Shown here: positions 4,514 to 15,507 of the stretch, one piece after another
How the letters are laid out: each line of letters starts with the position of its first letter
Numbering within the stretch: position 1 is the first letter of the stretch
Origin: a virus
Virus record (IMG/VR): IMGVR_UViG_3300046003_009097
Location: 1-29,568 of that record
Length of the DNA stretch: 29,568 nt
Strand: one strand, 5' to 3'
Program-made: the position numbers and the translations under genes
The notes under the pieces: model-generated
Seen by the model: only the letters and a program-made list of their open reading frames with translations
What the model was told of the DNA's origin: nothing
The model's database searches: none

Positions 4514-6815
4514 GCAAGGAGACATGAATCCGCTGGACTTCAATGATTGCGCAGTGCCGGTCGAAATGGATCGGGGTGCCGAGCGCGATGAGACTCGTGC
4601 TGCCTTGCTGGCGCGGCTCGAATCGGTGCTGTTCACGATCTATCCAACCGGCAAGGTTCGGCGCGGGAAGTTCCATATCGGCGACATCCTGGGCAGCCCA
4701 GGCGACAGCTTGGAGATCGTTCTCGAAGGCGAAAAAGCCGGTCTTTGGACAGACCGTGCGACCGGCGATGGTGGCGATATCTTCGATCTGATTGCGCGGC
4801 ACATGTCTGCCGACGTGCACGCTGATTTCGCGCGTGTGTTGCAGTACGCCAGCGATCTGGCCGGTCGCGCCAGTCCCGCGCCGGTGCGCAAGACCAAACG
4901 CGAAGCGCCCGTTGATGACCTTGGCCCAGCCACCGCCAAATGGGATTACCTGGACGCCAGAGGTACCTTGATCGCGGTGGTCTACCGCTACGACCCAACG
5001 GGCCAGCGCAAGGAGTTCAGGCCCTGGGATGCCAAGCGCCGAAAAATGGCTCCACCGGATCCACGCCCCCTATATAACCAGCCAGGCATCGCCGTTGCAG
5101 ATCAAGTCGTGCTGGTCGAAGGTGAAAAGTGCGCCCAAGTCTTGAACAATCTGGGCGTCTGCGCCACGACCGCCATGCACGGTGCCAACGCGCCGGTCGA
5201 CAAAACGGACTGGTCACCACTGGCAGGCAAGGTGGTCCTGATCTGGCCTGACCGGGACAAGCCGGGATGGGAATACGCCGACCGTGCGTCGCAGGCCATC
5301 TTGGCGGCCGGAGCAGTGTCGTGCGCCATTCTTTACCCACCAGCAGAAAAGCCAGAGGGTTGGGATGCGGCTGATGCCTTCACTGATGGGTTTGACGTGC
5401 AAGGCTTCCTGCTGGCAGGTGACCGGGTCCCGGTGGCCTTGCAGTCGGATGCGCCAATCGAGGACGATCTGGTAGCGGGGCTGGATTGGACCACCGAAGA
5501 TGGCTTGGCCACCGCGTTCACACGACGCTATGGCGAGGACTGGCGCTACTGCGCCCAATGGGGCAAGTGGCTGGTGTGGACCGGCATTCGCTGGAATCCG
5601 GACCAGCTTCTGTACATCCAGCATCTGTCACGCAACATCTGCCGGGCGGCATCTTTCAAAGCTGATTCGCCGCGTCTGCGCGCCCGACTGGCCAGCTCTT
5701 CCACCATCAGTGCAGTAGAGCGCATTGCACGCAGTGACCCGAAACATGCGTCCTTGGCGGAGCAGTGGGATGCCGATGTCTGGCTGTTGAACACCCCTGG
5801 TGGCGTCGTCAATCTGCACAGTGGGCTCATCCGACCTCACGACAGGGGGGACAAGATGACCAAGGTGTCCACGGCTGTCCCGCAAGGCGACTGCCCGATC
5901 TGGCGCGCATTCCTATCGGACGTGACCGGTGGCGATGCCGAGCTGATGGTCTACCTGCAGCGCATGGTGGGTTACTGCCTGACGGGTGTCACCAGCGAGC
6001 ACGCGCTGTTCTTTCTGTACGGCACCGGGGCCAACGGCAAGTCGGTGTTCGTCAACGTGATCGCCACGATCCTGGGCGATTACGCCGCCAATGCCCCCAT
6101 GGACACGTTCATGGAAACCCGCTCCGATCGACATCCCACCGATCTGGCCGGATTGCGTGGCGCGCGCTTTGTCGCATCGATCGAAACCGAGCAGGGCCGG
6201 CGCTGGAACGAATCCAAGATCAAGACCATCACCGGTGGCGACAAGGTGTCTGCGCGCTTCATGCGCCAGGACTTCTTTGAGTACACACCGCATTTCAAGC
6301 TGGTGATCGCGGGCAACCACAAGCCGTCTATCCGCAATGTCGACGAAGCGATGAAGCGGCGTCTGCACTTGATTCCATTCACGGTGACCATTCCACCGGA
6401 ACGCCGTGACGGAAAGCTTACCGAGAAGCTCTTGCAGGAGCGTGACGGCATCTTGGCCTGGGCCTTGGAGGGGTGTTTGCTGTGGCAGCAGTCCGGCCTG
6501 AAGCAGCCGCAAAGCGTGATGGACGCCACGGAAGAGTATTTCGAGGCCGAGGACGCGATGGGCCGGTGGATCGAGGACCGGTGTGTCCTGAACGCCAACG
6601 CCAAGGCACTGACATTCGAGATTTTCAACGACTGGAAGCAATGGGCCGAGGCCAATGGCGAGTTTGCCGGAGCCATGCGCCGGTTTTCTGATGCATTGCT
6701 GGCACGCCGTTTTGAGAAATGGCGCAACGGCTCTGGCATGCGCGGTTTTGTTGGCATTGGCTTGAAACAGCCCTCCAACTTTCCGCATGCGTCCTACCCC
6801 TACAACGACAACTGA
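4506..6815 (+). CDS. Toprim primase / SF3 helicase fusion (P4-type)
   Basis: The 769-residue product combines a primase-like N-terminal half with a superfamily 3 helicase. The toprim signature is VLVEGEK near residue 201 and WPDRD near 247-251. The helicase has Walker A GTGANGKS at 506-513, an acidic Walker B-like ASIETE near 557-562, and the sensor strand LVIAGNHKP near 599-607, then MKRRLHLIPF with the likely arginine finger. Such proteins prime and unwind phage or plasmid DNA at the origin as hexamers. The D5_N-like region lies between the halves. I chose the ATG at 4506, which overlaps the previous gene by 8 nt with AGGAAG about 11 bases upstream; ATG 4524 has AAGGAG only two bases away and is less likely. 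It is the main replication enzyme of the window. Confidence 0.9.
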   Translation: MSEQGDMNPLDFNDCAVPVEMDRGAERDETRAALLARLESVLFTIYPTGKVRRGKFHIGDILGSPGDSLEIVLEGEKAGLWTDRATGDGGDIFDLIARHMSADVHADFARVLQYASDLAGRASPAPVRKTKREAPVDDLGPATAKWDYLDARGTLIAVVYRYDPTGQRKEFRPWDAKRRKMAPPDPRPLYNQPGIAVADQVVLVEGEKCAQVLNNLGVCATTAMHGANAPVDKTDWSPLAGKVVLIWPDRDKPGWEYADRASQAILAAGAVSCAILYPPAEKPEGWDAADAFTDGFDVQGFLLAGDRVPVALQSDAPIEDDLVAGLDWTTEDGLATAFTRRYGEDWRYCAQWGKWLVWTGIRWNPDQLLYIQHLSRNICRAASFKADSPRLRARLASSSTISAVERIARSDPKHASLAEQWDADVWLLNTPGGVVNLHSGLIRPHDRGDKMTKVSTAVPQGDCPIWRAFLSDVTGGDAELMVYLQRMVGYCLTGVTSEHALFFLYGTGANGKSVFVNVIATILGDYAANAPMDTFMETRSDRHPTDLAGLRGARFVASIETEQGRRWNESKIKTITGGDKVSARFMRQDFFEYTPHFKLVIAGNHKPSIRNVDEAMKRRLHLIPFTVTIPPERRDGKLTEKLLQERDGILAWALEGCLLWQQSGLKQPQSVMDATEEYFEAEDAMGRWIEDRCVLNANAKALTFEIFNDWKQWAEANGEFAGAMRRFSDALLARRFEKWRNGSGMRGFVGIGLKQPSNFPHASYPYNDN

Positions 6816-7456: not shown

Positions 7457-7666
7457 GTGAAAGTACCCGCACAACACTACCGCTGCCCCTTGGGGCGATT
7501 GCAGCCTCAGATCACAGACCTGGATGCAGTCAAACGATCTGGCTGGCTCGAGCAACACATCCTCGTGGTCAACGCCGAGGACGCCCGACTGGACTTCTTT
7601 GAGCGCGCGCTGGTGCAGCGCATTGGCGAGCGGCTGTACGGCAAGGCGGGGGTCAAGCATGGCTAG
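7457..7666 (+). CDS. Small phage protein of unknown function (69 aa), GTG start
   Basis: This 69-residue protein lies between the resolvase and the DUF6362-like gene. The GTG at 7457 is chosen because a strong AGGAGG (7445-7450) lies six bases upstream and it follows the previous stop by one base; the open frame itself extends upstream within the resolvase gene. The sequence begins VKVPAQHYRCPLGRL and ends in a basic helix (ERALVQRIGERLYGKAG). It has no recognised domain. Its stop overlaps the next ATG by 8 nt. Confidence 0.65.
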   Translation: MKVPAQHYRCPLGRLQPQITDLDAVKRSGWLEQHILVVNAEDARLDFFERALVQRIGERLYGKAGVKHG

Positions 7667-8063
7667 GACAGAACTACTCTGGACACCCGACGCAGTGGCA
7701 GACCGCTTCACCGAGGCAGCAGTCACCGCACGACGCCTGCCACCCGTGAGGGTGCAGGGCTACTTCAACTGCTGGCCCGCCTTTGCACGCAATGCGTGGG
7801 AAGCCTTCTCGGCAGACGAGCCTGTGCATCGTTCCTTCCCGCCCAGTCCCGAGGACGTCGACCGGATGCTGGAGGTGATGCGTTGGGTCCGATGGCTTGA
7901 GGTTGAGCAGCGCCATCTGGTATGGATGCGGGCCAAGAACTATGACTGGAAATCCATATGTCGACGGTTCGCATGCGATCGCAGTACCGCTTGGCGGCGC
8001 TGGCAACGTGCACTGCAGACGATTGCCGACCATCTCAATGAGGTAGTGGTGTCGGTTGTGTGA
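7659..8063 (+). CDS. DUF6362-like protein with sigma-like helix-turn-helix
   Basis: The 134-residue product starts WTPDAVADRFTEAAVTARRLPPVRVQGY, which fits the phage DUF6362 family. The C-terminal part (about 85-128) reads as a helix-turn-helix: QRHLVWMRAKNYDWKSICRRFACDRSTAWRRWQRAL, similar to sigma-70 region 4-like modules. It may bind DNA or regulate late genes; the family function is not known to me. The ATG at 7659 overlaps the upstream gene. It is the last gene of the early block and is followed by the 342-bp non-coding region, so any regulator or packaging site there is within its reach. Confidence 0.75.
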   Translation: MARTELLWTPDAVADRFTEAAVTARRLPPVRVQGYFNCWPAFARNAWEAFSADEPVHRSFPPSPEDVDRMLEVMRWVRWLEVEQRHLVWMRAKNYDWKSICRRFACDRSTAWRRWQRALQTIADHLNEVVVSVV

Positions 8064-8277
8064 TTTGGCGTAAATGTGCGGAGATGGTCGTGCCAGTGCG
8101 CGAACATGCGGTGCAAACGCACTAACAGCACTGCAACACTTTGCATGATTTCACCTATATTCACGGCTATGGTTGCGAAAGGTATGAGATCTGAGAAGGT
8201 TTCCCAGAAAAAGATGGGTCCTTCCTGGCCAAAATGCCATGCGGGGGGAGCGAGCGCAAGAGTCCCCTAGCGACAGA

Positions 8278-8314
8278 GTGCAAACCCAGGTTTGCAGGGT
8301 TTGCAGGGTTGCAC
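8278..8314. repeat. Palindrome and tandem TTTGCAGGG repeats
   Basis: TGCAAACC (8279-8286) and GGTTTGCA (8289-8296) form an 8-bp perfect inverted repeat with a 2-nt spacer. It is followed by two head-to-tail copies of TTTGCAGGG (8291-8299, 8300-8308) and by TTGCAC (8309-8314), which pairs with GTGCAA at 8278-8283. Iterated half-sites like these usually bind a protein such as a repressor or terminase small subunit. Confidence 0.8.
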
Positions 8315-8353
8315 CCCATACTGCCTCGCAACGCCCATCCCGTTCCCCCTTTG

Positions 8354-8405: not shown

Positions 8406-9824
8406 TTGAAAACGCTCAACGTCGAGTACCGAAAGGTCGAGGCGCTCATTCCGTACGCCCGTAATCCTCGCACGCACAGTGAAGCGCAAGTGGCCAAGAT
8501 TGCCGCCAGCATCGTCGAGTTTGGCTGGACCAATCCGGTGCTGGTCGACGGTGAGAACGGCGTCATTGCTGGCCATGGTCGACTGGCAGCCGCACGCAAG
8601 CTCGGATTGGACGCCGTGCCGGTCATTGAGCTGGCACACCTGTCTCCAAACCAAAAGCGCGCTTATGTGATTTCTGACAATCGCTTGGCACTGGAGGCGG
8701 GTTGGGATGAGGAAATGCTGGCGCTGGAGTTGGCGGACCTGACAGAGGCCGGATTCGATCTGGCCTTGACGGGATTTGATGATGTCGAACTTGACACCCT
8801 GTTCGGTGCCCCGAACGCAGCTGATGCAGCCGACACAGACAGCGAGGGTGCCGATGCGGATGGAGACGACGTGGCCGACGAGGTGCCCGAGGCACCAGTC
8901 ATTGCTGTCTCCCAACCCGGAGATGTTTGGGCTTTGGGCCAGCATCGCTTGATCTGTGGTGATGCAGCCGACCAGTCCGTGATCGCCAGTCTGATGCAGG
9001 GTGACCAAGCGCAGCTGTGTTTCACCTCACCGCCCTACGGAAACCAGCGGGACTATGCCAGCGGTGGCATCACCGATTGGGATGGTCTGATGCGTGGCGT
9101 GTTCGCCAAATTGCCCGTCACCGACGACGCGCAGGTCTTGGTCAATCTTGGTTTGATCCATCGCGACAACGAAGTCGTTCCGTACTGGGACGCATGGCTT
9201 GGCTGGATGCGCAGCCAAGAGTGGCGGCGCTTTGCCTGGTATGTTTGGGACCAGGGTCCTGGCATGCCCGGCGACTGGTCCGGACGTTTGGCTCCGAGTT
9301 TTGAGTTCGTTTTCCATTTCAACCGCCAAAGCCGCACACCCAACAAGATCGTTCCTTGCAAGCACGCCGGGCAGGAATCCCATTTGCGTGCCGACGGGAC
9401 GTCCACTGCCATGCGCAGCAAGGAGGGTGAGGTCGGAGGCTGGGCGCACAAAGGTCAGCCCACACAGGACAACAAGATTCCTGACTCGGTGATTCGGGTG
9501 ATGCGCCACAAGGGCAAGATCGGCCAGGACATTGACCACCCGGCCGTGTTCCCGGTCGCGCTGCCGGAATTCATTCTCCAGGCCTATTCCAACACCGGGG
9601 ACCTTGTGTACGAGCCCTTTGGTGGCAGCGGCACCACGATCCTGGCCGCACAGCGTTCGGGTCGCCAGTGCCGATCGGTCGAGATTGCGCCTGAGTACGT
9701 GGACGTCGCGATCAAACGTTTTCAGCAGAATTTCCCCGGTGTGCCCGTCAAGCTGGTGTCCACCGGTCAAACCTTCGAGGCCGTGGTCGCCGAGCGCTCG
9801 GAAAGCACGGAGGTGGCGCAATGA
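8406..9824 (+). CDS. ParB-like nuclease/DNA-binding domain fused to DNA methyltransferase (SPPY type)
   Basis: The 472-residue protein has an N-terminal ParB-like domain (about 1-115: LIPYARNPRTHSEAQVAKIAAS, GHGRL at 56-60, then DNRLALEAGWDEE), an acidic linker (about 140-165), and a C-terminal DNA methyltransferase. Its catalytic motif is SPPY at 208-211 and the S-adenosylmethionine site is FGGSGTT at 405-411, the order of beta-class N4-cytosine/N6-adenine enzymes. SPPY is commonest in N4-cytosine enzymes. No restriction enzyme is adjacent, so this is an orphan methyltransferase, probably shielding phage DNA from host restriction. It starts at TTG 8406 and overlaps the second fusion by ATGA at 9821-9824. 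Confidence 0.88.
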   Translation: MKTLNVEYRKVEALIPYARNPRTHSEAQVAKIAASIVEFGWTNPVLVDGENGVIAGHGRLAAARKLGLDAVPVIELAHLSPNQKRAYVISDNRLALEAGWDEEMLALELADLTEAGFDLALTGFDDVELDTLFGAPNAADAADTDSEGADADGDDVADEVPEAPVIAVSQPGDVWALGQHRLICGDAADQSVIASLMQGDQAQLCFTSPPYGNQRDYASGGITDWDGLMRGVFAKLPVTDDAQVLVNLGLIHRDNEVVPYWDAWLGWMRSQEWRRFAWYVWDQGPGMPGDWSGRLAPSFEFVFHFNRQSRTPNKIVPCKHAGQESHLRADGTSTAMRSKEGEVGGWAHKGQPTQDNKIPDSVIRVMRHKGKIGQDIDHPAVFPVALPEFILQAYSNTGDLVYEPFGGSGTTILAAQRSGRQCRSVEIAPEYVDVAIKRFQQNFPGVPVKLVSTGQTFEAVVAERSESTEVAQ

Positions 9825-11092
9825 CGACCTCCTGGCTGGCAGACAAGATCCAGCAATGGCCCACAGCCAAACTGATCCCCTACGCCCGCAATGCCCGAAC
9901 CCACTCGGAAAGCCAAGTGGCGCAGATCGCGGCGTCCATTGCCGAGTTCGGATTTACCAACCCCATCCTGACAGGTGCCGACGGCGTGATCGTAGCGGGC
10001 CATGGCAGGTTGGCTGCTGCCCAAAAGCTCGCCATGGCGACGGTGCCGGTCGTGGTCTTGGAGCATTTGAGCCCCACGCAACGCCGCGCCTTGGTCATTG
10101 CGGACAACCGGATTGCCGAGAACGCAGGCTGGGACGACGCCATGCTGCGCCTGGAAATGGAAGCACTGCAGCTTGACGACTTTGACATGTCGCTCACCGG
10201 CTTCGATGCCGATGCACTGGCCGAGTTGATGGCCGGAGGCGACGGTGCAGATGCAGGCAACACCGATGAGGATGCGGTGCCAGAAGTCAGCGACACATCA
10301 ATCTCGCGTACCGGCGACGTTTGGTTGCTCGGTAGCCATCGGCTGTTGTGTGGAGACTCCACGCTGGAGGAGAGTTACGTGCAGTTGTTGCAAGGGGAAG
10401 ACGTGGACATGGTGTTCACGGACCCACCCTACAACGTCAACTACGCCAACACCGCCAAGGACAAGATGCGCGGCAAGAACCGTGCGATCCTGAACGATAA
10501 CCTGGGCGATGGGTTCTATGACTTCCTGCTGGCCGCGCTGACGCCCACGATCGCCAATTGCAAGGGTGCCATTTACGTGGCGATGTCCTCCAGCGAGCTG
10601 GATGTGCTCCAGTCAGCCTTTCGTGAGGCCGGTGGCAAGTGGTCGACGTTTGTCATCTGGGCCAAGAACACCTTCACCATGGGGCGCTCGGACTACCAGC
10701 GCCAGTACGAGCCCATTCTTTACGGCTGGGCCGAAGGTGGCAAGCACCATTGGTGCGGCGACAGGGATCAGAGCGACGTGTGGCAGATCAAGAAGCCCCA
10801 CAAGAACGATTTGCACCCGACCATGAAGCCGGTCGAACTGGTGGAGCGCGGAATCCGCAACTCCAGTCGGCCCGGCAACTCGGTCATGGATCCCTTTGGC
10901 GGCTCCGGCACCACCTTGATCGCCGCAGAAAAGACGGGTCGTGTGGCCCGAATGATCGAGATGGACCCCAAGTACGTCGACGTCATCGTGCGCCGCTGGC
11001 AGGACTGGACCGGCAAAAAAGCCACCCGGGAGTCTGACGGGGTGGCGTTCGATGCTCAGGCTGCCAGCTGCTCTTCGGCGATTTCGCAGTGA
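9821..11092 (+). CDS. Second ParB-like domain fused to DNA methyltransferase (DPPY type)
   Basis: The 423-residue product repeats the layout of the preceding gene: ParB-like domain (LIPYARNARTHSESQVAQIAAS, GHGRL at 60-64), acidic linker, then a methyltransferase with DPPY at 201-204 and FGGSGTT at 359-365. The ParB halves of the two genes are clearly paralogous, while the methyltransferase halves differ in catalytic motif and target region. DPPY is typical of N6-adenine enzymes. The WAKNTFTMGRSDYQRQYEPILYGW region is the usual beta-class segment. Its last 37 bases overlap, tail to tail, the minus-strand gene ending at 11056. It is probably coupled to the first methyltransferase and serves the same DNA-modification role at another sequence. 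Confidence 0.88.
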   Translation: MTTSWLADKIQQWPTAKLIPYARNARTHSESQVAQIAASIAEFGFTNPILTGADGVIVAGHGRLAAAQKLAMATVPVVVLEHLSPTQRRALVIADNRIAENAGWDDAMLRLEMEALQLDDFDMSLTGFDADALAELMAGGDGADAGNTDEDAVPEVSDTSISRTGDVWLLGSHRLLCGDSTLEESYVQLLQGEDVDMVFTDPPYNVNYANTAKDKMRGKNRAILNDNLGDGFYDFLLAALTPTIANCKGAIYVAMSSSELDVLQSAFREAGGKWSTFVIWAKNTFTMGRSDYQRQYEPILYGWAEGGKHHWCGDRDQSDVWQIKKPHKNDLHPTMKPVELVERGIRNSSRPGNSVMDPFGGSGTTLIAAEKTGRVARMIEMDPKYVDVIVRRWQDWTGKKATRESDGVAFDAQAASCSSAISQ

Positions 11093-11424
11093 ATCACAAA
11101 TCCTGTGAGGTAAGGCAGGCCGCGCGGGATGCCGTATTCCTTGCTGGTGTGGCGTCCGATGCTCCAGCTCATCCACTTTTGGGTGGCTGCTTGCACCGCT
11201 TGCTCCAGGCCCTTGCCAAGATACAGATGGTTTTGCACTTCGTCCGCAAAGTGGCGTCCGTGGCGGCTGTCCAGAAACGCGCGGACTGCGTCGGGAGCGC
11301 AGCCAGTGATCTCTGCAATGGCAGGCAATGTGACCGCCCATGCTGCTGGTGCTTTCTCCTGCATCGTGCCCCAAAAGCCCCAGTCTTCGTTCTGGGTGGC
11401 GGGGATGTTGGTGTTGGTGCTCAT
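11056..11424 (-). CDS. Small accessory protein of unknown function (122 aa)
   Basis: The product begins MSTNTNIPATQNEDWGFWGTM and ends PRGLPYLTGFVIHCEIAEEQLAA. A central helical part (AIAEITGCAPDAVRAFLDSRHGRHFADEV) resembles small proteins carried on beta-proteobacterial mobile elements, but I cannot assign a function. The open frame runs to 11511, yet the ATG at 11424 is preferred: AAGGA lies seven bases upstream on the minus strand and the repeated leader element ends 39 nt before it. It is convergent with and overlaps the second methyltransferase gene by 37 bp. It is the last gene of the minus-strand island. Confidence 0.7.
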   Translation of the reverse strand: MSTNTNIPATQNEDWGFWGTMQEKAPAAWAVTLPAIAEITGCAPDAVRAFLDSRHGRHFADEVQNHLYLGKGLEQAVQAATQKWMSWSIGRHTSKEYGIPRGLPYLTGFVIHCEIAEEQLAA

Positions 11425-11463
11425 GTTTTGGTCCTTGATGGTGATTGTTGCGACACCCGTAGT

Positions 11464-11510
11464 AACGCGCTGATCAACTGAGAAGCCAAGTTGTTCTTGG
11501 CATCTTTTCA
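11464..11510 (-). repeat. Leader repeat R1
   Basis: On the minus strand this carries CTTGGCTT (complement of 11483-11490), ten bases, then CAGCGCGTT (complement of 11464-11472), 39 nt before the start at 11424. Upstream on the same strand, the complement of TGGCATCTTTTCAATCT (11498-11514) is shared with R2. GCCAAG-AACAA-CTTGGC can form a 6-bp hairpin. See R2 and R3. Confidence 0.85.
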
Positions 11511-11523
11511 ATCTATTTTTGGG

Positions 11524-11883
11524 TCATCCGAGGCGAGCGACGTACCGGGCGTAGTCGCCACCCTCGGGGTTGACGTACAGGTAAGGGCGACCCGGTGCTG
11601 TGACCTCAACGCAGAGATAACCGTCCCCGGTGCCGCCACCTTTTCCGCGCAGCCAGTCGCGTGACTTCAGCAGGGTGCGAGCAAAGGCATCGAACTCGTC
11701 TGGGGTCAGTTCCCGCGTTTCGGTGACATAGATTTTGGTTTGTCCGTTGCCACCTACTTCGCTGAGGTCGGCAGGCTTGCGGGCAAAGGGCAGTCGCACG
11801 CTCAACTCTTCGACTTGGATGGCGGCTCCGCCAAACTGAAGGGTGCGAGGGGTGCGTTCGATGGTAATGGTCATGGTGCTCAT
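11524..11883 (-). CDS. Small accessory protein of unknown function (119 aa)
   Basis: The product opens MSTMTITIERTPRTLQFGGAA, followed by strands and the segment KIYVTETRELTPDEFDAFARTLLKSRDWL, then a glycine-rich loop and a C-terminal part ending YARYVARLG. It is soluble and has no recognised catalytic motif. The open frame reaches 11916, but the ATG at 11883 has AAGGA about nine bases upstream, and the leader repeat R2 ends 45 nt before it. A second in-frame ATG lies three codons on (11874). It lies in the minus-strand cargo island, probably transcribed from its own leader. The role is unknown. Confidence 0.7.
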   Translation of the reverse strand: MSTMTITIERTPRTLQFGGAAIQVEELSVRLPFARKPADLSEVGGNGQTKIYVTETRELTPDEFDAFARTLLKSRDWLRGKGGGTGDGYLCVEVTAPGRPYLYVNPEGGDYARYVARLG

Positions 11884-11928
11884 GGTGAGTTTTCCTTGCT
11901 GTTCGTCGTCAATCACGACACCTGCATG

Positions 11929-11977
11929 AACGCGCTGTTCCGAACAGAAGCCAAGCTATTTCTGGCATCTTTTCGAT
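11929..11977 (-). repeat. Leader repeat R2
   Basis: On the minus strand: CTTGGCTT (complement of 11948-11955), ten bases, CAGCGCGTT (complement of 11929-11937), 45 nt before the start at 11883. The ten-base spacer contains part of CTGTTC-G-GAACAG, a perfect short palindrome. CAGAA and TTCTG can pair around the conserved AGCTTGGC loop. Similarity with R1 runs for about 50 bases. Confidence 0.85.
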
Positions 11978-11986
11978 CTTTCTGAA

Positions 11987-12574
11987 TCAGGCAATGCGGT
12001 AAATGCGCTCGCCGCCCAGGGCCTTGTCGGACCCGATGGTGAGCCCCAGTTTTTTCTTGAAGGCTCCGGCAAACGTGCCCCGCACCGTGTGTGCCTGCCA
12101 GCCCGTGGCCTCGCAAATTTGGCGCACCGTCGCGCCTTCGGGACGCTTGAGCATCTGGACCACGGTGGCTTGCTTGCTGTTTTCCCGGGTGCGGGTTTTG
12201 ACCTGGGTGGGTGAGGGATCGAACGCTGGATCGATCGGAGTTTGGTCTTGCGGGGCCTGTGCCTCCTTGGCCCACTGTGCCTCGTGTTGCGCCACGGCGG
12301 CATCCATCTCCGGGTCTGCGACCAAGGGCGCCACTGGAGCCAAGGTCGCAACTGTAGGCCGTGGGCGACCCAGTGCGTCGTAGCCTTCGGCCGCGACAAA
12401 CCAGTGGGTGCCACCGCCAGTGGTGACCAGTGCGCGGTTAAAAAGCGCGTCGAGCACCTTTTTACGGGCTCCGCCCTTGACGCTTTCGGGGAACCATTCG
12501 ATGCGCCCGTCGTTGTGGTCCAGCGCGTGTTGCAGGACCTGGGTTTGGGTTGCGGTGAGTTGAATCGTGGTCAT
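11987..12574 (-). CDS. DUF3489 family protein
   Basis: The 195-residue product has an N-terminal module (about 1-70: QLTATQTQVLQHAL, GRIEWFPESVKGGARKKVLDAL) resembling a winged helix, a Pro/Ala/Asp-rich linker, and a C-terminal winged-helix block (about 128-195: RENSKQATVVQMLKRPEGAT, ICEATGWQAHTVRGTFAGAF) that is the DUF3489 signature. The family is common on plasmids, integrative elements and phages of proteobacteria and is probably DNA-binding. The ATG at 12574 is chosen over the longer frame because AAGGA lies seven bases upstream. There is no leader repeat here; it follows the 79-residue gene by 47 nt and is probably co-transcribed with it. Confidence 0.85.
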   Translation of the reverse strand: MTTIQLTATQTQVLQHALDHNDGRIEWFPESVKGGARKKVLDALFNRALVTTGGGTHWFVAAEGYDALGRPRPTVATLAPVAPLVADPEMDAAVAQHEAQWAKEAQAPQDQTPIDPAFDPSPTQVKTRTRENSKQATVVQMLKRPEGATVRQICEATGWQAHTVRGTFAGAFKKKLGLTIGSDKALGGERIYRIA

Positions 12575-12621
12575 TTGATTTTCCTTAGGTTTGTTGATGG
12601 TGTGTTGCTCGGTGGTGGTTT

Positions 12622-12861
12622 TCAGTCTTCCCAGACTTGCGCGCCGTCCAGGGTGATCCAAAGGCGTGCGTCGTCGAAGGTGGCCATCTCGCGCACCTCC
12701 AATCCGGTCTTGCGGTTGATGCCCGCTTTGTGCGTGTAGCAGTAGGTCTGGCCGTCGTGCTCGACCAGGCTGGGTCCGGTTTGGTCAAAGTTCACTTGGA
12801 TGCTCATCTCTCCGCGTGTGCGGTGGTTGGTGTCTGTTACTAGGGCGTTGATGGTTCTCAT
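12622..12861 (-). CDS. Small accessory protein of unknown function (79 aa)
   Basis: The product begins MRTINALVTDTNHRTRGEMS and contains a Q-T-Y-C-Y-T-H-K segment, a possible metal or small-domain feature, then REMATFDDARLWITLDG. I do not recognise it. Two starts are possible: ATG 12861, placed 38 nt after leader repeat R3 (the other repeats lie 39 and 45 nt before their starts), and ATG 12807, with GGAG close upstream, which would drop the first 18 residues. Leader spacing favours 12861. It is the first gene of the minus-strand island and is divergent from the terminase small subunit gene. Confidence 0.65.
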   Translation of the reverse strand: MRTINALVTDTNHRTRGEMSIQVNFDQTGPSLVEHDGQTYCYTHKAGINRKTGLEVREMATFDDARLWITLDGAQVWED

Positions 12862-12899
12862 TTGCTTGGCTTTCGTTGGTGTGTTGCGATGTCTCTATG

Positions 12900-12937
12900 A
12901 ACGCGCTGTTCCAGATGCAAGCCAAGCTAAATCTGCA
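12900..12937 (-). repeat. Leader repeat R3 in the divergent promoter region
   Basis: On the minus strand: CTTGGCTT (complement of 12919-12926), ten bases, CAGCGCGTT (complement of 12900-12908), 38 nt before ATG 12861. CAGAT and ATCTG can pair around the conserved AGCTTGGC, where R2 has CAGAA and TTCTG, so one base pair has changed on both sides. It also lies just upstream of the late operon on the other strand. Confidence 0.85.
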
Positions 12938-12966
12938 AAAAGACAAACAAATGTTTGAAAAATCCA

Positions 12967-13524
12967 ATGGGAATCTCGATTCGTGCCTATTCCCGCCACA
13001 GGGGGGTCACCGACACCGCTGTGCACAAGGCCATTCGTACCGGTCGCATCACGCCGGAAGCTGACGGAACCCTCAATGCCGACCGGGCGGACGCAGACTG
13101 GGCACGCAATACCGACTCGCCCAAGAAGGGCACGAGTCAACGCGCTGAAAACGTCGTGGTGCGGGACACTCAGGCGGAGCAGACTGCTGCGCTGCCTGGC
13201 AGTTCTGGAGTTTCGATTCCAATGGGATCTGGTGGTACGTCACTCTTACAGGCCCGCACTGTCAATGAGGTGGTCAAGGCGCAAACCAACAAGGTGCGCC
13301 TGGCCCGTCTCAAGGGAGAACTGGTCGATCGGCCGCAGGCCATTGCCCACGTTTTCAAGTTGGCAAGATCGGAGAGGGACGCCTGGCTGAACTGGCCAGC
13401 GCGCATCTCAGCGCAAATGGCAGGAAAGTTGGGTGTGGATCCACATGCCATGCACGTCGCGTTGGAGGCAGCTCTGCGTGAGCATTTACAAGAGCTGGGC
13501 GACTTGCGGCCTCGTGTGGATTGA
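12967..13524 (+). CDS. Terminase small subunit, Nu1-like
   Basis: The N-terminus (about 1-55) is a winged-helix DNA-recognition module: ISIRAYSRHRGVTDTAVHKAIRTGRIT then DADWARNTD, as in Nu1-type small terminases. A low-complexity linker follows, then the assembly domain (about 95-180: VNEVVKAQTNKVRLARLKGELVDR, AWLNWPARISAQMAGKLGVDPHAMHVALEAAL). It would bind the packaging site and dock the large subunit encoded 15 bases downstream. I chose ATG 12967; TTG 12955 is the only longer choice. Neither has a clear ribosome site, which is unusual for the first late gene. The gene is divergent from the minus-strand island. Confidence 0.85.
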   Translation: MGISIRAYSRHRGVTDTAVHKAIRTGRITPEADGTLNADRADADWARNTDSPKKGTSQRAENVVVRDTQAEQTAALPGSSGVSIPMGSGGTSLLQARTVNEVVKAQTNKVRLARLKGELVDRPQAIAHVFKLARSERDAWLNWPARISAQMAGKLGVDPHAMHVALEAALREHLQELGDLRPRVD

Positions 13525-13539
13525 AACAGGGCACAGAAC

Positions 13540-15507
13540 ATGGAAGATTACGAAGGTGCCCAAGAGATTGAACGCGCGTGGCGGGAAGGCCTGACACCGG
13601 ATCCGCTGCTGTCGGTATCAGAGTGGTCAGATCGCCACCGCATGCTGTCGAGCAAAGCGTCCGCTGAGCCTGGCCGCTGGCGCACCAGCCGCACCCCGTA
13701 TTTGAAGGCCATCATGGACTGCCTGTCGCCGACCTCAGCGGTTGAGCGGGTGGTTTTCATGAAGGCAGCGCAGTTGGGTGCGACTGAAATAGGTTCGAAC
13801 TGGATTGGCTACGTCATCCATCACGCGCCCGGTCCGATGATGGCAGTGTGGCCCACGGTGGACATGGCCAAGCGCAACTCGAAGCAGCGCATCGACCCAT
13901 TGATCGAGGAGTCAGAAGCCCTCTCGGCGCTGATCGCGCCAGCGCGTTCGCGCGACTCGGGCAACACCATCTTGGCGAAGGAGTTTCGAGGTGGTGTGCT
14001 GGTGATGACAGGGGCCAACAGTGCGGTGGGGCTTCGCTCCATGCCGGTGCGCTACCTGTTTTTGGACGAGGTGGATGGATATCCCTTGGACGTCGAGGGC
14101 GAGGGGGACGCGATTTCGCTGGCCGAGGCCCGCACTCGCACCTTTGCGCGCAGGAAGATTTTTATCGTCTCCACTCCCACGATCTCAGGCGTGAGTGCGA
14201 TTGAGCGGGAATACGAGGCGTCCGACCAGCGCCGCTACTTCGTGCCATGCCCGCACTGTGCCCACCGGCAGTGGTTGCGGTTTGAGCAGTTGCGCTGGGA
14301 CAAGGGGATGCCCGAGACCGCAGCCTACATCTGCGAGTCCTGCGATACGGCAATCGTTGAGCATCACAAGACCTGGATGCTCGAGCACGGTGAGTGGCGA
14401 TCCATGGTTGCGGAACACGGTACCAAGACCGCAGGCTTTCACCTGTCGAGCCTGTACAGCCCGGTGGGCTGGCGCAGTTGGCGCGAGATTGCTCTGGCGT
14501 GGGAGAGCGCGGTGAGCAAAAAATCTGGCTCGGCGGCGGCCATCAAGACCTTCAAGAACACCGAATTGGGCGAAACCTGGGTCGAAGAAGGCGAAGCACC
14601 CGACTGGCAGCGGCTCATTGAGCGGCGGGAAGACTACCGAATGGGGACGGTGCCCCTTGGCGGACTGCTGTTGGTCGGTGGCGCTGACGTGCAAAAGGAC
14701 CGGATCGAAGCATCGGTCTGGGCGTTCGGGCGAGGTAAGGAAGCCTGGCTGGTGGAACACCGTGTCCTGATGGGCGATACGGCTCGTGACACGGTGTGGA
14801 AGCAGTTGGCAGACATGCTGAGCGAGACCTGGACGCACGAGTCAGGTGCGTCGCTCCCTTTGGTCCGATTTGCCCTGGACACCGGTTTTGCCACCCAAGA
14901 GGCTTATGCCTTTGTGCGTTCTTGCCGCGATCCTCGGGTAATGGCCGTCAAAGGGGTGGCGCGCGGTGCTGCCTTGATTGCCACACCTACAGCAGTCGAT
15001 ATTTCTCAAGGTGGCAAAAAGCTCAGACGCGGCATCAAGGTGTTCTCGGTCACGGTGGGCATTGCCAAGCTGGAGTTCTACAACAACCTGCGCAAAACAG
15101 CCGATGTTCTGGAGGACGGAGTCACGATGGCGTACCCCGCAGGGTTCGTGCATTTGCCTAAGGTGGATGCGGAGTTTGTCCAGCAGCTGTGTGCAGAGCA
15201 GCTTGTGACCCGGCGGGATCGCAATGGCTTTGCCATCCGCGAGTGGCAAAAAATGCGTGAGCGCAACGAGGCGCTGGATTGCTATGTGTATGCCCGGGCC
15301 GCCGCGTCGGCCGCAGGTCTTGATCGTTTCGAGGAGCGTCACTGGCGCGAACTCAAACGACAACTCGGGATTGAGCTGCCACCGGATGCGCCGCCGCCGA
15401 TGCAACTATTCAACCCCTCAGAGGCCACCGACAGCGGTGGCCTTTCTGTTTCTGGTGTCAAGAAATCAGTTCGGCGCGTGATCAAAAGCCGTTGGCTGTC
15501 CTCGTGA
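13540..15507 (+). CDS. Terminase large subunit, lambda GpA-like
   Basis: This 655-residue packaging motor has an N-terminal ATPase and a C-terminal nuclease. Visible motifs: a Walker A-like KAAQLGATE at 75-83, Walker B FLDE ending Asp176-Glu177, a zinc-ribbon-like CPHC (237-240) and CESC (265-268), and nuclease acids in ADVQKDRIEA, ALDTGFATQ and LDCYVYARAAA. It cuts concatemeric phage DNA at the packaging site and pumps it into proheads through the portal. Length is close to lambda GpA (641). It follows the small subunit by 15 bases. The C-terminal 30 residues (from SEATDSGG on) are encoded across a hairpin with a T-rich tail (15423-15453) and look like an unconserved extension. Confidence 0.93.
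   Translation: MEDYEGAQEIERAWREGLTPDPLLSVSEWSDRHRMLSSKASAEPGRWRTSRTPYLKAIMDCLSPTSAVERVVFMKAAQLGATEIGSNWIGYVIHHAPGPMMAVWPTVDMAKRNSKQRIDPLIEESEALSALIAPARSRDSGNTILAKEFRGGVLVMTGANSAVGLRSMPVRYLFLDEVDGYPLDVEGEGDAISLAEARTRTFARRKIFIVSTPTISGVSAIEREYEASDQRRYFVPCPHCAHRQWLRFEQLRWDKGMPETAAYICESCDTAIVEHHKTWMLEHGEWRSMVAEHGTKTAGFHLSSLYSPVGWRSWREIALAWESAVSKKSGSAAAIKTFKNTELGETWVEEGEAPDWQRLIERREDYRMGTVPLGGLLLVGGADVQKDRIEASVWAFGRGKEAWLVEHRVLMGDTARDTVWKQLADMLSETWTHESGASLPLVRFALDTGFATQEAYAFVRSCRDPRVMAVKGVARGAALIATPTAVDISQGGKKLRRGIKVFSVTVGIAKLEFYNNLRKTADVLEDGVTMAYPAGFVHLPKVDAEFVQQLCAEQLVTRRDRNGFAIREWQKMRERNEALDCYVYARAAASAAGLDRFEERHWRELKRQLGIELPPDAPPPMQLFNPSEATDSGGLSVSGVKKSVRRVIKSRWLSS
15423..15453 (+). terminator. 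Terminator-like hairpin inside the 3' end of the terminase gene
   Basis: GGCCACCG (15423-15430) and CGGTGGCC (15435-15442) form a perfect 8-bp stem with an ACAG loop, followed by TTTCTGTTTCT. It lies 55-65 bases before the stop codon of the terminase gene, so it could attenuate transcription into the head genes. The interrupted T tract weakens the case. Confidence 0.5.

Follow-up and report, generated by a model that had tools for sequence, protein, structure and literature searches.

The window analysed here, a 29,568-base virus record from IMG/VR, contains a gap of 342 bp between the gene for a DUF6362 protein and the gene for MT1, a ParB-DNA methyltransferase fusion, and a cluster of TTTGCA/TGCAAA half-sites is located inside this gap. 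Among 81 DUF6362 loci, the window included, the distance from DUF6362 to the next methylase gene could be measured in 68, and fell between 307 and 385 bp in 55 of them. The features of the region are as follows.

7524-8063, plus strand: gene for the DUF6362 protein (Pfam DUF6362, E 2e-40), proposed to be a Q21-like late antiterminator
8133-8173, plus strand: promoter-like element consisting of GCAACA (8133-8138), a TATATT -10 (8156-8161) and a TATGGT -10-like pause element (8168-8173)
8216-8225, plus strand: predicted cosQ (GGGTCCTTCC), the same motif being present at the right ends of the lambda and N15 records
8239-8257, plus strand: predicted cosN, with the top-strand cut placed between 8243 and 8244 (ATGCG/GGGGG) from the spacing and from the homologous position, which is the RcKemmy record end
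8244-8254, plus strand: 11-base 5' cohesive end GGGGGAGCGAG, predicted by homology with RcKemmy
8268-8276, plus strand: conserved spacer TAGCGACAG, which separates cosN from the repeats (TAGCG conserved in at least 95% of 115 distinct rows)
8278-8315, plus strand: predicted cosB, with an inverted half-site (8279-8286) and direct half-sites (8289-8296, 8298-8305 and 8307-8314), the class of which follows the TerS tree and helix residues
8353-8394, plus strand: intrinsic terminator-like hairpin with an 8-bp stem, a 15-nt loop and a T tract, just before MT1
8406-9824, plus strand: MT1, the first gene right of cos
9821-11092, plus strand: MT2, a second ParB-DNA methyltransferase
12955-13524, plus strand: terminase small subunit, TerS (phrog_57, E 1.3e-32; model and fold matches)
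13540-15507, plus strand: terminase large subunit, TerL, of lambda gpA type (PF05876, PF20454)

The best PHROG match of the DUF6362 protein was to a family of unknown function, and a weaker match was found to a transcription-regulator family (E 1.5e-6). The AT skew is strongly negative over 11001-13000, and several ORFs on the minus strand were detected between MT2 and TerS; minus-strand genes lie likewise between cos and the terminase genes in the phages AcaML1 and RcKemmy. In three relatives (L002, L003 and L004), MT1 right of cos seems to be lost save for its short start, and a homolog of MT2 (91-92% identical) is found about 450-500 bp after DUF6362. As RNA, the segment 8100-8400 was predicted to fold more stably than 100 shuffles (z -3.15), partly via the palindromes and the terminator, and no Rfam family was detected within the window at the gathering threshold.

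A preliminary description of this DNA had recorded half-sites at 8112, 8140, 8279, 8291 and 8300, the palindrome TGCAAACC-CA-GGTTTGCA (8279-8296), a tandem pair of TTTGCAGGG (8291 and 8300) and TTGCAC at 8309, and all of these were confirmed. The GGGTCC motif and the run of G that it had reported are also present, at slightly shifted positions (8216 instead of 8217, and 8243-8248 instead of 8241-8246). The whole window carries 23 TTTGCA/TGCAAA half-sites. When 23 sites were placed uniformly at random 2000 times, no placement brought five within 214 bp and 10 brought three within 30 bp; the clustering is beyond chance. TTTGCAGGG occurs in the window at 8291 and 8300 only, and its complement nowhere. 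The array had been drawn over 8101-8314, but only the block 8278-8314 is conserved among relatives, the half-sites at 8112 and 8140 lying outside the conserved feature. For 117 distinct stretches of 150 bp left of cosQ (window included), any half-site was found in eight, and half-sites at the places of 8112 and 8140 in the window alone. These two half-sites, not being kept in relatives, were rejected as members of the array; the one at 8140 falls inside the spacer of the promoter-like element.

Relatives of the DUF6362 protein were collected from viral contigs (80 kept of 130), and those of MT1 from both viral contigs (80 kept of 444) and bacterial genomes (80 kept of 170). The titles of the bacterial MT1 relatives, as judged by eye, were mainly of beta- and gammaproteobacteria; a few were of MAGs under other labels. 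The set of 158 sequences examined consisted of the window, AcaML1 and the MT1-anchored loci L083-L158 and L270-L349, and was kept apart from four other viral MT1 relatives (L022, L055, L058 and L081). With a pattern allowing mismatches and a range of spacings, the core GGGTCCTTCC-N13-ATGCGGGGG was detected in 144 of the 158; a strict pattern identified a single core in each of 128 loci out of 159 and nothing in the other 31, and the laxer pattern was used for the counts. Among the 14 sequences without a detected core, L103, L104, L120, L143, L155 and L341 begin no more than 225 bp to the left of MT1, and the other eight seem to be real absences or to lie beyond the pattern. The first base of cosQ was 28 nt from the cut in all 143 parsed sequences, AcaML1 being the one unparsed.

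With the rows aligned on the cut, the consensus of 115 distinct rows was GGGtCCTTCCt..ccaaa...C.ATGCG, the cut, and then GGgGGcgcgAGCGCg.c..T....TAGCGtCaG (capitals, at least 95%), in which the conservation of cosQ and ATGCG is partly by construction because the rows were found with that pattern. The TAGCG sequence, the spacing and the repeats were not fixed by the search pattern. The 7-bp cosQ sequence GGGTCCT, located at 8216, was the commonest form in these rows, which had been found with this pattern, mismatches allowed. The preliminary description took GGGTCC and the G-run as a clue to cos, and they were read correctly, since they correspond to the predicted cosQ and cosN. The four half-sites of cosB begin 35 bp right of the predicted cut, and the direct repeats are spaced at steps of 9 bp, leaving no room for an IHF site between them. 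The sequence GGGYCCT occurs three times on the plus strand of the window and never on the minus strand; cosN is found behind the 8216 copy only, and a second cos in the window was rejected.

Ends of contigs cluster weakly at the cut: some 27 contigs have an end no more than 300 bp from it, and in three of these the end is at most 5 bp away. Only the three at the cut were checked as true contig ends, and the count is suggestive but weak as a sign of physical ends because contigs also break in repeats and shared sequence. A nucleotide search of phages with the cos region of the window gave five records at chance level (E 7), and a search with the cos region of a relative gave AcaML1 at E 5e-3, the rest of 198 records having E of at least about 0.7 among the matches listed. 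A cosQ-cosN pair at 29-nt spacing was noted in 27 other viral contigs (L350-L376), with a match to gpA-type TerL on the right in 16 of the 27 and, in some, with other types of repeat behind the pair, such as GGTTGTCAC, GTGCGCA and GGTTGACG; these contigs served as an additional control.

The repeats right of the cut belonged to the classes TTTGCA (57 loci), GTTACC (51), TTCGCA (35) and GTTTCC (1, AcaML1) without any ambiguous locus (n=144). For 94 of these labelled loci, which carry all six proteins with long enough matches (L150 and L333 are outside), changes of class were counted on protein trees. Two changes were required on the TerS tree, the minimum for three classes, against 7 on MT2, 9 on MT1, 11 on TerL, 22 on RuvC and 23 on DUF6362, and shuffling of the labels on the TerS tree (200 times) never gave fewer than 35. 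The trees made of TerS without the helix, or of its C-terminal part alone, required three changes, and the agreement of class with TerS is thus not resting on the letters of the helix alone. Both MT1 and MT2 separate the repeats from TerS, and linkage by itself would predict fewer changes for these two than for TerS; the opposite was observed. Co-variation strongly supports the half-sites of cosB as the predicted TerS-binding part, in line with the early suggestion of terminase small-subunit sites next to cos. In close relatives, for which the preliminary description had asked about conservation, the right-hand repeats either persist or give way, all at once and along with the TerS helix, to those of another class.

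The putative recognition helix of TerS corresponds to residues 20-28 in the model, and the residues associated with the class of the window are D20, T21, H24 and R28. Of 115 rows matching TerS, 111 were labelled, and in these GVSxxAVxKAIxxGRI, the helix, is near-invariant except for the residues that follow the class. Residues 21, 24 and 28 were T (44/44), H (44/44) and R (43/44) in the TTTGCA class, A (30/30), R (30/30) and A (28/30) in the TTCGCA class, and V, K and D (35/35 each, with one gapped row) in the GTTACC class, while residue 20 was D in TTTGCA (44/44) and TTCGCA (29/30) and H in GTTACC (35/35). These residues of the predicted helix agree with the repeat class almost without exception.

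Of 28 loci in a more distant set, 11 had the core (at most four substitutions), and the code was readable in those 11 only. Across the more distant phages as a whole, residues 20/21/24 were D-M-R with TTCGCA in L403, L404, L405, L407 and L408; E-S-R with TGCGCA in L406 and L369; H-T-Q with GTTGCC in L383 and L384, of which the core itself is weak; and H-T-G or H-T-A with GTTTCC in L401, RcKemmy and AcaML1. D-T-R was found in L381 and L382 with TTCGCA beside TTTGCA copies, and because of these copies the fit of the two loci is not perfect. As judged from the sequences, L406 is a natural joint change of helix and repeats when set against its five near relatives. Where testable, that is where the core was found, the more distant phages appear to fit the code, L381 and L382 imperfectly. 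A wider natural series of TerS helix/repeat pairs was not found in the literature searched.

The structure model of TerS, mostly poor beyond residue 55, was compared with known folds over residues 5-55. The top three matches of a second look were 7lw0, 7lxs and 7lwr (Z 7.5-7.8), from a study of viral DNA packaging, and gpNu1 (1j9i) was found at rank 12 (Z 5.6, 49 residues, rmsd 2.0), with MerR-type regulators and excisionases ranking between the packaging entries and gpNu1. Since Z stays below 8 and such other proteins match in between, the fold alone says only that TerS has a winged HTH. The winged-HTH DNA-binding N-terminus of gpNu1-like TerS is, in this model, present in the TerS of the window.

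The gene directly right of cos is not terS in the window but MT1, and the preliminary description had doubted a cos for the reason that the terminase genes lie more than 4 kb away. This doubt was removed by the related loci, in which such a distance is the usual layout: the core was separated from the TerL match by 4.5-6.5 kb in 105 of 108, and by 8.0, 11.7 and 11.7 kb in the remaining three. RcKemmy, the ends of which were read from sequencing, has a similar gene order at shorter range. The distance between the predicted cos and the terminase genes is thus a trait of the family, and the adjoining of terS to cos is a usual layout, not a requirement for function.

The half-site cluster is very probably the cosB part of a lambda-type cos, at which the packaging enzyme would recognise and cut the genome. 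In the proposed mechanism, TerS would bind the half-sites through its recognition helix (residues 20-28) and anchor TerL, which would then nick cosN in a staggered manner to give the 11-base 5' end. The right-hand side with cosB, MT1, MT2, TerS and TerL would enter the capsid first, and cosQ of the next cos would act as the stop signal. The specificity of packaging would reside in the pair of TerS helix and cosB repeats, changed together, as in lambda.

The preliminary description had also offered repressor operators and replication iterons, and neither is supported by the tree analysis, in which the class follows TerS and not DUF6362 or the ParB-methylase genes. The proposal that the repeats are operators of a regulator, either DUF6362 or a Cro-like repressor, with cos features that are coincidental or separate, could draw on an HTH linked to the repeats with faint similarity to lambda Cro (E 1.3), on the promoter-like element about 100 bp left of the repeats and on the HTH of DUF6362, which is weakly of the sigma-region-4 type. 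Against the two changes of class on the TerS tree, however, stand 23 on the DUF6362 tree, and the repeats come after the proposed start, immediately to the right of cosN, making this proposal very unlikely.

It is still harder to see in the repeats a set of replication iterons, or a partition site on which the ParB-like MT1 and MT2 would act, even though ParB-like domains are encoded immediately right of them and clustered direct repeats are typical of iterons: MT1 and MT2 needed 9 and 7 changes of class against two for TerS, and the repeats are just right of a cosN of which the homologous position is the real genome end of RcKemmy. A pac site of headful packaging, at which TerS binds and one cut starts a series without cohesive ends, needs the same protein and the same repeats, and a pac cut could equally leave three contigs starting or ending within 5 bp of the cut. 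Under such packaging, however, cosQ, the termination signal of lambda, would be conserved at fixed spacing without use; TerL is of gpA type; and an 11-base 5' overhang is listed for RcKemmy at the same place in the part of PMC8601537 used here. A pac site is highly improbable.

In the Q layout of lambdoid phages, the regulator gene lies upstream of a promoter, a second -10-like element is found at the start, and a terminator follows about 200 nt on. In the window, GCAACA is followed after 17 nt by TATATT and after 6 nt more by TATGGT, all left of cosQ. A promoter motif of such type was detected in 87 of 128 distinct sequences and in 0 of 384 shuffles, a weak control because the motif was defined after seeing the data; the 41 sequences lacking it include some with a different promoter-like type. 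A hairpin with T tract before the methylase was found in 117 of the 128 and in 29 of 384 shuffles. A simple scan, limited to loops of 3-8 nt for terminators, detected neither a sigma-70 promoter nor the terminator at 8353.

The Q reading was drawn from this layout before the fold of DUF6362 was searched. With VIA-align, the best four matches of the predicted DUF6362 structure were all Q21 (Z 8.5-8.8 over 105-113 residues, model residues 52-179 being aligned), although Z near 8 can reflect a common arrangement, and the next match other than Q21 had Z 7.7. Foldseek gave weak matches with sigma factors first, none of E below 0.001. The Pfam Q families PF06530, PF03589 and PF06323 (PMC7171158) did not match DUF6362 at E up to 1, with filters that drop most weak matches, and no paper on DUF6362 was found in the literature searched. 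Q families, their promoter-proximal sigma-dependent pause and their action on terminators are described in the sections of PMC7171158 used here. The window may resemble the Q21 system in two ways, the predicted core fold of DUF6362 and the place of its gene, which directly precedes a promoter-like element with a second -10-like element and a terminator; it differs in that cos lies inside the proposed leader and in the lack of a Pfam Q sequence match.

When the promoter was classified in the same manner as the repeats, 88 loci required 4 changes of class on the DUF6362 tree, 5 on RuvC, 10 on TerS, 11 on TerL and 12 each on MT1 and MT2; ten of 140 loci, the window among them, were unclassified, and the 88-locus trees are those of its relatives. 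The promoter class thus appears to mirror the repeat class, which fits recombination at cos and is also explained by linkage to the adjacent DUF6362. The same 340 bp would then serve as a late leader governed by DUF6362, with the promoter and its -10-like pause element, then cos, and then the terminator. As the late promoter would sit some 80 bp inside the right virion end and face outwards, the late genes could be reached only after the ends are joined. We consider the odds about even that a Q-type late leader of about 340 bp, governed by DUF6362, surrounds cos.

The combined proposal, which we hold as evenly poised between right and wrong, is that a large family of proteobacterial phages carries a cos nested in a Q-type late leader, with DUF6362 as a further Q family and a promoter firing across the cohesive-end junction, together with a swappable code of cosB and TerS helix. 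For residues 20/21/24, this code would read D-T-H for TTTGCA, D-A/T/M-R for TTCGCA, E-S-R for TGCGCA, H-V-K for GTTACC, H-T-A/G for GTTTCC and H-T-Q for GTTGCC.

Packaging specificity is known in genetic detail for a few coliphages (lambda, 21 and N15 in the literature consulted). In the present family, TerS helices and cosB repeats form matched natural pairs that recombination seems to have reassorted; a protein-DNA code may be read from this series and then tested by substitutions. The cos signature (GGGTCCTTCC, 13-14 nt, ATGCGGGGG) could help to find the genome ends of those uncultured phages and prophages that carry gpA-type terminases, and to orient their contigs. DUF6362, a Pfam domain of unknown function, would gain the role of late antiterminator, if the proposal is true. 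The lambda-type cos itself is known; new would be a displaced cos with four packed half-sites for TerS, and several natural specificities.

In comparison with known cos systems, the first base of GGGTCC is 30 nt from the right end of the lambda record and, in the window, 28 nt from the predicted cut. For N15, whose record carries the 12-base end twice, the distance to the record end is 42 nt, again giving 30 nt. The overhang is 12 bases in lambda and N15, and 11 are predicted for the window. The cosQ of lambda-type cos is described as 7 bp long and highly conserved in the passages of PMC4669245 cited here. The cosB of lambda-type cos includes an IHF site, which is absent in N15; that of the window, with four packed half-sites, one inverted and the direct ones at 9-bp steps, is unlike both lambda and N15. 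The terS gene is 190 bases from the left end in lambda and 88 in N15, whereas it is 4.7 kb from cos in the window, with other genes in between. For lambda and 21, packaging specificity was assigned to the TerS recognition helix and the R sites, with involvement of TerS residues 20 and 24 in recognition (PMC4669245, the part cited here), and because these two residues are known, the principle of helix/repeat specificity is not new.

The Acidithiobacillus phage AcaML1 resembles the window in having the core and GGTTTCC repeats in a gap of 294 bp, between gp22 and gp23, with two methylases next. It differs in that cos is immediately followed on the right by gp23, the TerS homolog, which is the lambda arrangement. 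A DUF6362 match was not found in the stretch of AcaML1 fetched (L082, JX507079.1). The record calls gp33 TerS while similarity points to gp23; the segments concerned are 5375-5908 and 11132-11593. For the phage RcOceanus (L380, MW677520.1 36600-37609), an 11-base overhang is listed in the portion of PMC8601537 cited; its linear record is not opened at cos, and the cut lies inside the last few hundred bases.

RcKemmy belongs to the RcC cluster of Rhodobacter phages, for which Table 3 of PMC8601537 lists an 11-base 5' overhang, the ends having been determined, according to the part of that paper used here, from sequencing reads stopping at one base. Its linear record closes with AGGTTCTTCC-N13-TATGCG, an end that is 28 nt from where cosQ starts, and opens with GGGGGCGGAAGCGCG, after which come GGTTTCCAC repeats. 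The order of genes is a ParB-like gene first, TerS about 2 kb in, then TerL, and a DUF6362 protein last (Pfam DUF6362, E 8.7e-21). RcKemmy differs from the window in its cosQ (AGGTTCTTCC), in its GGTTTCC repeats and in a first gene annotated as ParB-like only, and its TerS is 40% identical to that of the window. It agrees with the window in the 28-nt spacing, the end at TATGCG/GGGGG and the three spaced repeats. By analogy, RcKemmy is the decisive comparison for reading the locus as cos, the cut and the overhang being published for a relative.
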